Shown: in pieces, positions 35,001 through 40,062 of the stretch
How positions within the stretch are numbered: position 1 is the stretch's first letter
How the letters are laid out: every line of letters starts with the position of its first letter
Assembly (NCBI GenBank): GCA_021775775.1
Contig: JAJFHF010000245.1
Coordinates: 1 to 44,821 of the forward strand
Length of the DNA: 44,821 nt
Reading direction: 5' to 3'
DNA from: Hyphomicrobiaceae bacterium
GTDB taxonomy: Bacteria > Pseudomonadota > Alphaproteobacteria > Rhizobiales > HXMU1428-3
Program-made: the position numbers and the translations under genes
Notes under the pieces: generated by a model
Database searches by the model: none
Told to the model about the DNA's origin: nothing
The model's input: only the letters and a program-made list of their open reading frames with translations

Positions 35001-35912
35001 TCAGTCCTTGATTAAGTTGATAATTGCTTGCCCGATAGCTTCGGGAATCTGTGGCACTACGGCGTTTCCGAGTGCCTTAAGTCTGTCCACCCTGGTGGAA
35101 AACCCATCACTATCTCGGCAAATGAGGGGTTGAGGTATATTGGGTCGGTTGAAGTAGTCCTCAGTCCTTCGGACATCTTCGCACCACGAAAATGCTTGCT
35201 GCCCACATAGCGATTGCGGTTCGCGCCTTTGAATTCGTTCGCTCCCATGGTGGGTAGTAATCGCGCCAGCCGAGCTAATCCCACACTTCCTGCCGTTCCC
35301 TGACCATTGATCTTTCTCGGCATGCCCGTTTTGGTGATGTAATACTGATCGTTCTTGCCGATGATCGCTCCCTGAGTCGCATCGCTTGCCATCGGTGTGG
35401 GCAACAATCCACACTCGGTCTCGCCGGTGGGGTGCGCCGATGGCACAAGCTGGAATAACAAATGGCTGCACGGTGTAGCCTTCATGCTCCAGGTCAATCT
35501 TCGTGCGGGTGAATGCCAGATTGACGAAGTTAGCAACGTTTTCACCAACAACCCAAGAGGGCTGCGCTTGCTGAATGATTCGAAACATTTCCGGCCAGAG
35601 GTCGCGGTCATCTTCCGTTCCTTTTTTGCGTCCGGCGACACTGAACGGCTGACAGGGGAATCCACCGCAGATAAGGTCGATTCGTCCTTCGTAAATAACT
35701 CGCTCTGCATCGTATAATCTTCCGTTTTCATAGCGTAACTGCCGAATATCCTGAGCAATCGGCACATGCGGCCAGTGCTTGCTTAAGATATTTCGGCAAA
35801 ATGGTTCAATTTCACAAAAAGCAATGGTATCGAAGCCAGCACGCTCCAAACCAAGGGAGAAACCGCCGATGCCGGAGAATAAATCCAGCACAGTCAGTTT
35901 CGTTTTCATCAT
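35001..35912 (-). CDS. dcm: DNA (cytosine-5) methyltransferase
   Basis: The roughly 303-residue enzyme shows the C5-methyltransferase motifs in order: I DLFSGIGGFSLGLERAGF, IV GGFPCQPFSVAG (catalytic Cys about 87), VI GENVAN, VIII GAPHRRDRVWIV and X LKALGNAVVPQIPEAI. Between VIII and X, where the target-recognition domain should be, the sequence is short, polar and of low hydrophobicity (DGKRCDSGSDHRQERSVLHH). That part is also read in another frame by a second conserved protein. GAGG lies before ATG 35912. No restriction partner is nearby, so it may protect phage DNA or regulate. Confidence 0.92.
   Translation of the reverse strand: MMKTKLTVLDLFSGIGGFSLGLERAGFDTIAFCEIEPFCRNILSKHWPHVPIAQDIRQLRYENGRLYDAERVIYEGRIDLICGGFPCQPFSVAGRKKGTEDDRDLWPEMFRIIQQAQPSWVVGENVANFVNLAFTRTKIDLEHEGYTVQPFVIPACAIGAPHRRDRVWIVAHTDGKRCDSGSDHRQERSVLHHQNGHAEKDQWSGNGRKCGISSAGAITTHHGSERIQRREPQSLCGQQAFSWCEDVRRTEDYFNRPNIPQPLICRDSDGFSTRVDRLKALGNAVVPQIPEAIGQAIINLIKD
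35057..35731 (-). CDS. Conserved phage protein overprinted on the methyltransferase gene
   Basis: A second open frame of about 224 residues lies wholly inside the methyltransferase gene on the same strand. It is not random: KERKMTATSGRKC, LLVKTLLTSSIWHSPARRLT, TPCSHLLFQLVPS, TGETECGLLPTPMASDATQG and YLNPSFAEIVMGFPPGWTDL match, by my recollection, a protein family often found with phage cytosine methyltransferases. The start is uncertain: 35731 is chosen from the match, 35767 or 35710 are possible. Its function is unknown to me. Confidence 0.7.
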   Translation of the reverse strand: MKTEDYTMQSELFTKDESTLSAVDSPVSRSVSPDAKKERKMTATSGRKCFESFSKRSPLGLLVKTLLTSSIWHSPARRLTWSMKATPCSHLLFQLVPSAHPTGETECGLLPTPMASDATQGAIIGKNDQYYITKTGMPRKINGQGTAGSVGLARLARLLPTMGANEFKGANRNRYVGSKHFRGAKMSEGLRTTSTDPIYLNPSFAEIVMGFPPGWTDLRHSETP

Positions 35913-38314: not shown

Positions 38315-38842
38315 ATGACTGAACTTTCTACAGCACAACGCACCATTTTAACCTCTGCAGCTAAATCGCCAAATACTGAAATTCGACAATTTATGCAGCA
38401 CATCAAAAGCCCTGTCATACAGGATAAGATGATCACCGCCTTGCTACGCAAAAAGATGATTACGGTGCAAGGTGCCGAAGCAGTCGGCAACCATTACAAA
38501 TTCGATAAAAACACCAAGTTTGTAATCAGCCAGGAAGGGCTGAATGTCATCAACGGCTCGGCAGAGGCCGCACCTGTAACATCATGTAACACGGAGAAAC
38601 ACGATGTAACGCCGAGTAACGAACCGAAACGCGAGACCAAGCAATCGATTATCATTAATCTTTTATCCCGCGAAGAAGGAGCAACCCTGGTAGAGTTAAT
38701 CGATGCCACCGGATGGAAACCACACTCGGTACGCGGTCATCTCTCCAACCTGCGTAAAAAGCGTGGATTGCCCATTGAAACCTTCACCACCGGCGAAGGC
38801 AAACATGGCTACCGACTTTTACCTGATCAGGAAGCGGCCTGA
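38315..38842 (+). CDS. DUF3489-like regulatory protein
   Basis: A 175-residue protein and the only plus-strand gene in the structural region. The C-terminal 65 residues (QSIIINLLSREEGATLVELI, then TGWKPHSVRGHLSNLRKKRG) match DUF3489, a winged helix-turn-helix-like domain. The N-terminal half has a similar helical domain. The linker encodes NTEKHDVTPSNEPKR, close to the replication protein's linker repeat, because the gene contains the same phased DNA repeats. AAGGAG precedes the start. DNA binding is likely; its target is unknown. Confidence 0.8.
   Translation: MTELSTAQRTILTSAAKSPNTEIRQFMQHIKSPVIQDKMITALLRKKMITVQGAEAVGNHYKFDKNTKFVISQEGLNVINGSAEAAPVTSCNTEKHDVTPSNEPKRETKQSIIINLLSREEGATLVELIDATGWKPHSVRGHLSNLRKKRGLPIETFTTGEGKHGYRLLPDQEAA
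38576..38630 (+). repeat. Six GWAAC motifs at exact 10-bp spacing
   Basis: GTAAC at 38576, 38586, 38606 and 38616 and GAAAC at 38596 and 38626 keep a perfect 10-bp period. The unit and its order (including GAAACACGATGTAAC) match the array at 4100-4174 in the replication gene. In the circular phage genome the two arrays are about 7.5 kb apart. Confidence 0.75.
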
Positions 38843-40062
38843 CGCTTTTTCGCAATCTCCGCAAAGGACTTCTTTTCACCGGCATGCTTCGCAGTTTTGC
38901 CGGTGAACTCTTCCCACCGCTTCACAATCACATCCACATAGCACGGATCAAGTTCAATCAACCGCGCCTTACGTTGCAATTTCTCACACGCGATCAGCGT
39001 AGTGCCGGAGCCACCGAAGCTGTCCAACACGATATCCTTTGTTTTGCTGCTGTTTTCAATGCCACGGCACACCAACTCCACCGGCTTCATGGTCGGATGT
39101 AAGTCATTGGTTTTAGGTTTATCGTAATGCCATAGATCGCTCTGGCTACGATCTCCACACCAGAAATGCTTGTTGCCATCAGGCCAGCCATAGAGGATCG
39201 GCTCATATTGTCGTTGATAATCTGAGCGACCCATCGTGAAGTGATTCTTTCCCCAGATAATAAACGTTGACCATTTGCCGCCAGCGTCTGCAAAGGCACG
39301 ATGGAGGGTATGGAGTTCTGAGGAGGACATGCAGATATACAACGCACCCTTGCAGACTTTCACCATCTCGGTACAGGCATCTGTCAGAAACTTCTGAAAA
39401 TCAGCACCGAGATTATCATTCTTAATCTTCCGTTTGTTACCGCGCACATTGTCTTTCATGGTTTGACCATAATCGACATTGTAGGGCGGGTCGGTAAATA
39501 CCATGTCGGCCAGCTCGTCACCCATCAATGCCTTCATGGTTTTGGCCTTGGTGCTATCGCCGCAGATTACACGGTGGTCGCCCATCAGCCAGATATCACC
39601 TTCTTTGGAAACCGGTATCTCCGGTGCTTCCGGTACTTCATCATCATCGGTTAATCCATCCATCGCAGCACCATCGAGCAGCTGTTCCAGTTCAATTGCT
39701 TCAAACCCTGTTAGATCTAAATCAAAATCCATATCGCTCAGTTCACCAAGCTCAATCGCCAACAGATCTTCGTCCCACTCCGCATCTTCATGGGTGCGGT
39801 TGTCAGCCAGCCTGTAAGCCTTTATCTGCGCCTGTGTGAGGCCAGTGGCTACATGCACCGGTACTTTTTTTAACCCCAGCGTCTGCGCCGCCTGCAGGCG
39901 CGTGTGGCCTGCAATGATAACCATTTCCTCATCCACCACGATAGGCTGGCGGAATCCGTATTCCTTAATCGAGGCAGCAACTTTGGCTATGGCAGCATCA
40001 TTTTTGCGGGGATTACGCGCATACGGAATCACCCGACCAATTTCGATCAGTTCTACTTTCAT
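38827..40062 (-). CDS. ParB-domain / DNA methyltransferase fusion
   Basis: The 411-residue protein joins a ParB/sulfiredoxin-like N-terminal domain (IPYARNPRKND, IIAGHTRLQAA, residues 12-58) to an N6-adenine or N4-cytosine methyltransferase. TDPPYNVDYG (191-198) precedes FGGSGTT (349-355), the beta-class order. HPTMKPVELV is also typical. Such orphan methyltransferases are common in phages and may protect against host restriction. It converges on the DUF3489 gene, overlapping it by 16 bp. Confidence 0.93.
   Translation of the reverse strand: MKVELIEIGRVIPYARNPRKNDAAIAKVAASIKEYGFRQPIVVDEEMVIIAGHTRLQAAQTLGLKKVPVHVATGLTQAQIKAYRLADNRTHEDAEWDEDLLAIELGELSDMDFDLDLTGFEAIELEQLLDGAAMDGLTDDDEVPEAPEIPVSKEGDIWLMGDHRVICGDSTKAKTMKALMGDELADMVFTDPPYNVDYGQTMKDNVRGNKRKIKNDNLGADFQKFLTDACTEMVKVCKGALYICMSSSELHTLHRAFADAGGKWSTFIIWGKNHFTMGRSDYQRQYEPILYGWPDGNKHFWCGDRSQSDLWHYDKPKTNDLHPTMKPVELVCRGIENSSKTKDIVLDSFGGSGTTLIACEKLQRKARLIELDPCYVDVIVKRWEEFTGKTAKHAGEKKSFAEIAKKRQAAS

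Follow-up and report, generated by a model that had tools for sequence, protein, structure and literature searches.

A predicted split C5-cytosine DNA methyltransferase of phage type with its proposed recognition subunit nested in the +1 frame of the catalytic gene

Two overlapping reading frames in a phage structural cluster

The window is the whole stretch of DNA that was analysed, 44,821 nucleotides, and corresponds to contig C163 of a 2.7 Mb draft genome. On its minus strand lies a cluster of phage structural genes, consisting of terminase small, terminase large, the overlapping genes alpha and beta (Table 1), head-tail adaptor, portal, major head/protease and tail genes. Alpha starts 7 or 10 bases past the terminase stop codon. 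Shortly upstream of the terminase genes is a second phage DNA methyltransferase gene (window 38827-40062, minus strand), in which a ParB-like N-terminal domain is fused to a methyltransferase domain (phrog_498, E 1e-160). When a genome collection was searched with the single protein, the only close relatives returned were two MAGs, one of Rickettsiales and one alphaproteobacterial.

Table 1. Features of the alpha/beta locus, in window positions
Feature	Position	Strand	Basis and remarks
Alpha, C5-cytosine DNA methyltransferase catalytic subunit, 302 aa	35001..35909	-	PF00145, phrog_363 and AF2 model matches; alternative start ATG 35912
Alpha motif I, LDLFSGIGG	35862..35888	-	Sequence motif
Alpha motif IV with catalytic cysteine, FPCQPFS	35640..35660	-	Sequence motif
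Alpha motif VI, VVGENVANF	35526..35552	-	Sequence motif
Alpha motif VIII, PHRRDRVWIVA	35400..35432	-	Sequence motif
Alpha spacer VIII-X, 106 aa, polar, predicted disordered	35082..35399	-	AF2 pLDDT < 50; 29:3 non-synonymous:synonymous changed codons vs L002
Alpha motif X, LKALGNAVVP	35052..35081	-	Sequence motif
Beta, nested +1-frame gene, 217 aa, proposed recognition subunit	35057..35710	-	phrog_1008 match; homologues in same relative frame; alternative in-frame starts 35731, 35767
Beta N-terminal part over alpha motifs IV-VIII, KERKMTATSGRKC ... LLFQLVPS	35408..35710	-	Reduced alpha synonymous divergence vs flanks (moderate)
Beta recognition segment, two PTP-type modules	35135..35407	-	Same modules between VIII and IX in single-chain actinophage enzymes; cassette swap
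Beta PTP module 1, LLPTPMASD	35381-35407	-	Sequence
Beta PTP module 2, LLPTMGANEFKGA	35222-35260	-	Sequence
Beta motif IX, LNPSFAEIVMGFPPGWTDL	35078..35134	-	Beta-frame codon-position entropy
Beta stop codon	35057-35059	-
Shine-Dalgarno-like GGAAG (weak), eight bases before beta ATG 35710	35719..35723	-	Sequence

Alpha matches PF00145 with an E value of 2.8e-46, but over profile positions 2-227 of 324 only, and phrog_363 with an E value of 1.5e-82 in the PHROGs profile search. The AF2 model of alpha matches M.HaeIII (1dct, E 7.8e-13) and M.HhaI (both E about 1e-12). All of the PF00145 catalytic motifs I, IV (PCQ), VI (ENV), VIII and X are present in alpha, and an earlier reading of the letters by themselves (the sequence-only reading) had correctly placed VI, VIII and X in this frame. 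Neither motif IX nor a folded recognition domain was found in the alpha chain by motif search or in the AF2 model. The catalytic core and the motif X helix were modelled confidently, and the spacer between VIII and X is almost without regular structure, with pLDDT < 50 across nearly all of residues 177-280; the earlier description of this region as polar and lacking a normal recognition domain is thereby borne out. The locus is a member of the PF00145 C5-methyltransferases only as a two-chain pair.

Among the PHROGs families, beta resembles phrog_1008, labelled 'DNA methyltransferase' (E 3.9e-25), with residues 29-230 of 236 aligned to positions 37-281 of the 329 in the profile; profile searches gave no match to Pfam and NCBIfam models. 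PTPMASD and further sequences had been picked out in this frame by the sequence-only reading; PTPMASD belongs to the first of the 'PTP-A-D' modules, and LNPSFAEIVMGFPPGWTDL, which was also among those sequences, is the motif IX that is missing from alpha. Helices are predicted in the N-terminal part of beta with moderate confidence. The AF2 model of beta, made with 66 sequences, was poor (mean pLDDT 60.9, pTM 0.31), Foldseek found no PDB match for it, and a profile search of PDB sequences with beta gave no match. The identity of the recognition domain therefore rests on sequence and context.

Spread of the pair and translation of beta

Homologues of beta are found in phages of Lacticaseibacillus, Paenibacillus, Stenotrophomonas, Bacteroides, Escherichia, Edwardsiella, Salmonella, Klebsiella and others, on plasmids of Acinetobacter, Bacteroides, Paenibacillus and a Rickettsiales symbiont, and in viral contigs, where at least 587 were confirmed. 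The sequence-only reading had named a lack of homologues, or stops in close relatives, as grounds for giving up the second protein; homologues are abundant and the frame is open in close relatives.

Two scans were made with alpha only (the coliphage K1H alpha and an alignment of the window-family alpha), so that loci were not picked by beta. All 160 viral loci from these scans, a set in which a few contigs repeat earlier loci, gave a beta profile match in the +1 frame, with one locus (L249) broken by a frameshift. The motif IX pattern was present in the +1 frame at 124 of the 160, and the other 36 had the profile match, mostly with a variant motif IX. Among 108 alpha/beta pairs searched with the strict motif IX pattern, 80 have it solely in the +1 frame, 26 in neither frame (variant motifs) and one solely in alpha (L027), and one more pair is frameshifted. 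Motif X, where detected among the 108 pairs, was in alpha. The relative frame is +1 in all alpha/beta pairs except L069/L249 (IMGVR_UViG_3300030107_006646). There, both frames are displaced together by one frameshift within the recognition segment, which joins beta to alpha motif X and leaves motif IX in the third frame; a broken locus, a sequencing error or phase variation may account for this. L027 (CP113869.1, 1469-2491) is on a Candidatus Megaera (Rickettsiales) plasmid and represents an intermediate division of the enzyme, with the PTP modules in the +1 frame and motifs IX and X in the alpha frame. In L151 and L152, the beta-frame ORF continues into HNH/endonuclease VII-like sequence (RCAICGDEP...HVDHCH...CRGCNHMLG), possibly a fusion with, or readthrough into, a neighbouring nuclease gene.

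Two protein-like frames on the same strand had been proposed at 35057-35731. Both frames are open there and 35731 is an in-frame ATG, but the ATG at 35710 (MQSELF) is the best supported start. It is preceded by GGAAG and conserved in L001, L002, L035 and L037, and the beta frame of L035 is closed just eight codons upstream of the matching ATG. Shine-Dalgarno-like matches of at least 4 nt precede beta starts at 34 of 79 loci, compared with 66 of 455 control windows (p 4e-8). From this enrichment and the GGAAG before ATG 35710, separate initiation is predicted to be the likeliest route of beta translation. Programmed frameshifting from alpha to beta and back to alpha, giving a single full-length enzyme instead of two subunits, would rebuild the single-chain order VIII, recognition modules, IX, X. 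It is nevertheless improbable, because two opposite shifts would be required, beta already runs for some 100 codons before motif VIII ends and has its own, Shine-Dalgarno-enriched starts, and both frames are open far past any junction. Two separately initiated subunits are thus preferred.

Codon-position constraint and undivided relatives

None of 5000 synonymous-codon permutations of the window alpha left the 217 codons of the beta frame open, the mean being 5.8 stops. Among 87 relatives, the same permutation gave a mean of 6.2 expected stops, and the summed log10 open probability was below -200, with each locus floored at 1/300 and relatedness ignored.

In the shared codon register, beta positions 1, 2 and 3 are alpha positions 2, 3 and 1. 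Outside the overlap, the window and L002 differ by 9/7/31 changes at alpha positions 1/2/3, a normal coding pattern. Over the VIII-X spacer the changes are 26/4/5 at alpha positions 1/2/3 (beta 3/1/2), a contrast with the flanks at p 2e-7, and the changed alpha codons comprise 29 non-synonymous and 3 synonymous. The same contrast was found between the window and L035 (p 5e-7), which is not independent since it shares the window with the L002 comparison, and in the unrelated pair L042-L046 (p 6e-4). Because the spacer changes are nearly all silent in beta, beta is the constrained protein over the spacer, and the earlier suspicion that the other frame had shaped this region holds. Over motif IX, entropy at beta codon positions 1/2/3 is 0.54/0.62/1.19 (62 sequences), and the residues N, P, M, G, P and W are nearly invariant in the same set. 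The synonymous-constraint check that the sequence-only reading had proposed thus locates constraint in the beta frame over both the spacer and motif IX.

The amino acids of the alpha spacer look like a by-product of beta coding. Spacer length varies from 62 to 331 aa across the family, as expected if it just tracks beta. A conserved C-terminal stretch of alpha, EPxVGRVADGVPxRVDRLK, was considered as a functional alpha motif and rejected for most of its length, where its variation tracks beta codon positions.

Over motifs IV-VIII, several pairs show only about half as much divergence at alpha third positions as in the flanks, and both frames appear constrained. This is a weaker point for beta, since a smaller drop in synonymous divergence over IV-VIII (0.31 vs 0.43) is seen as well in a control pair of single-chain enzymes that has no beta. 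For the N-terminal part of beta the support is only moderate.

It is very unlikely that beta is a non-coding shadow, with a +1 frame that seems conserved only through the conserved alpha motifs. Parts of beta do mirror alpha motifs, and a published overlap looks like such a case: totally overlapping C5 methyltransferase frames in S. thermophilus 5093-group phages and Tn5252 were called striking (PMC5601072). In Streptococcus phage P0092 (L141), the outer frame (1450-2313) encodes a complete single-chain enzyme with motifs IX and X. The internal +1 ORF (1601-2020) gives a weak N-terminal beta-like match only, contains no modules and no motif IX, and is a probable shadow ORF; the S. thermophilus overlap was set aside as a precedent. 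In the alpha/beta pairs, however, the frame that resembles a shadow across the spacer and motif IX is alpha, given the concentration of substitutions at beta third positions, and beta is open in intact loci though about six stops are expected. Beta is accordingly best read as a coding sequence.

In actinophage Phinally gp5 and Geralt gp64, one chain in one frame carries motifs I-VIII, several PTP-type modules, motif IX (RLNAAFAEWMMMLPAG, RLAAAFPEWMMGWPAGW) and motif X (GNGVCP). Baby16 gp79/gp78, Catdawg gp6/gp5 and Mordred gp80/gp81 have the order VIII, modules, IX, X split over two tandem genes. In the actinophage enzymes it is the part with the modules and IX that the beta profile matches (E 5e-13 to 1e-18), and beta is thus the counterpart of the stretch between VIII and X in a C5 enzyme. 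That beta is a separate protein unconnected with methylation, such as an anti-restriction or regulatory protein, would fit its lack of a Pfam or NCBIfam match but is very unlikely, because beta holds the motif IX missing from alpha, actinophages have the beta segment in one chain with I-VIII and X, and PHROGs and some phage records name beta a DNA methyltransferase.

Close relatives have exchanged the recognition segment as a cassette between flanks that are 77-96% identical. Nucleotide identities over I-VIII, the recognition segment and IX-X are 0.84, 0.38 and 0.84 for the window and L037, 0.96, 0.51 and 0.77 for L009 and L078, and 0.82, 0.41 and 0.77 for L042 and L057. Conversely, the window and L007 share 74% identity over the last module and motif IX of beta, against no more than about 32-37% for alpha. 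The otherwise distant betas of L023 (an A. baumannii plasmid), L007 and L010 have this last recognition module (GANEFKGA..RYRGSK.FRGAKMSEGLRT..DPIYLNP; window 35060-35260) in common with the window, which suggests a common target half-site or exchange.

Proposed enzyme and known systems

The presence of motif IX and the modules in beta, the beta-frame constraint, the unsplit relatives and the cassette swap make beta most likely the recognition half of a split methyltransferase. The sequence-only reading, which had guessed at a recognition or partner subunit, is supported at the level of prediction. On this evidence, the product of the locus is very probably a phage or prophage C5-cytosine DNA methyltransferase, naturally split, with alpha predicted to carry out catalysis and beta to hold the recognition modules and motif IX. 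Alpha would provide the AdoMet-binding and catalytic large domain, made of motifs I-VIII and the C-terminal motif X helix. Beta, initiated separately at an internal +1 site, would provide the target-recognition modules and motif IX as the small domain. The two chains would then assemble into one enzyme, the methylated sequence being set by the beta modules, and methylation would most likely shield phage DNA from host restriction. The alpha frame may stay open through the spacer only so that translation gets to motif X.

A more tentative and rather doubtful extension is that beta is a modular specificity subunit. In this view the PTP-type modules, of which a protein has between one and four or more, would each recognise a separate target or half-target. 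Phages might then re-target or stack specificities via cassette exchange in the double-coding region, with alpha tolerating a newly written spacer on each occasion as a disordered tether. If true, split methyltransferases with multiple specificities would make up a large family, most of it unannotated.

The predicted split would account for a common type of phage methyltransferase in which the annotated chain seems to be without a recognition domain, by identifying the half that carries it, and gene calling and target prediction would be affected for many phage genomes. It also offers a repeatedly sampled natural case of protein halves in overlapping frames, in Pseudomonadota, Bacillota, Bacteroidota and actinophage relatives. 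Where the frames coincide, one is functional and the other seems to be carried along passively, and this opens the evolution of overprinted genes to direct test.

The phrog_363/phrog_1008 families, the P. larvae phages and coliphage K1H share both families, alpha and beta, and their nested arrangement, and in some cases both frames were annotated. Beta is annotated 'internal gene' in P. larvae phages and 'Mte8-like protein' in coliphage K1H, and what the pair does is not explained in these records. Many database records list one of the two frames only; with these records and no Pfam or NCBIfam beta model, the generality of the nested layout seems under-recognised. The two-polypeptide split itself is of a known kind (M.EcoHK31I), and 'internal genes' were already noted in a few phages; family breadth, recognition modules in the nested frame and cassette exchange might be new to a specialist.

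In M.EcoHK31I, the gene of the small subunit is said to overlap the large one in another frame, and both subunits were reportedly required in vitro (as attributed to Lee et al. in 1995); at the window locus the small-subunit gene is nested in the +1 frame. No relative turned up when E. coli genomes were searched for distant similarity to the window DNA, and a plasmid search for an EcoHK31I-like locus gave only further records annotated as a single DNA cytosine methyltransferase. One account describes M.EcoHK31I (YGGCCR) as a two-polypeptide C5 methyltransferase with I-VIII and X in the large chain and IX in the small chain, its recognition domain being predicted in the large subunit (PMC3404938). 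By this published description, the division of motifs is the same as between alpha and beta. Unlike M.EcoHK31I as published, the window alpha has an unconstrained, disordered spacer and the recognition modules are in beta; this difference may be real or may reflect an old mis-assignment. By analogy, the window locus may work like M.EcoHK31I, for which the published placement of the recognition domain is itself a prediction.

The actinophage proteins Phinally gp5, Geralt gp64 and Baby16 gp79/gp78 have the same PTP modules and motif IX as beta, but no nesting. M.AquI alpha/beta, as outlined in the same account, is a C5 methyltransferase with a natural split within the variable region and both IX and X in the small chain (PMC3404938). 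In contrast, motif X of the window locus is in alpha and the genes are nested. When M.SssI was split artificially, the best complementation was obtained with a C-terminal piece starting between VIII and the recognition domain (PMC3404938), a split point close to the natural division in the window locus.
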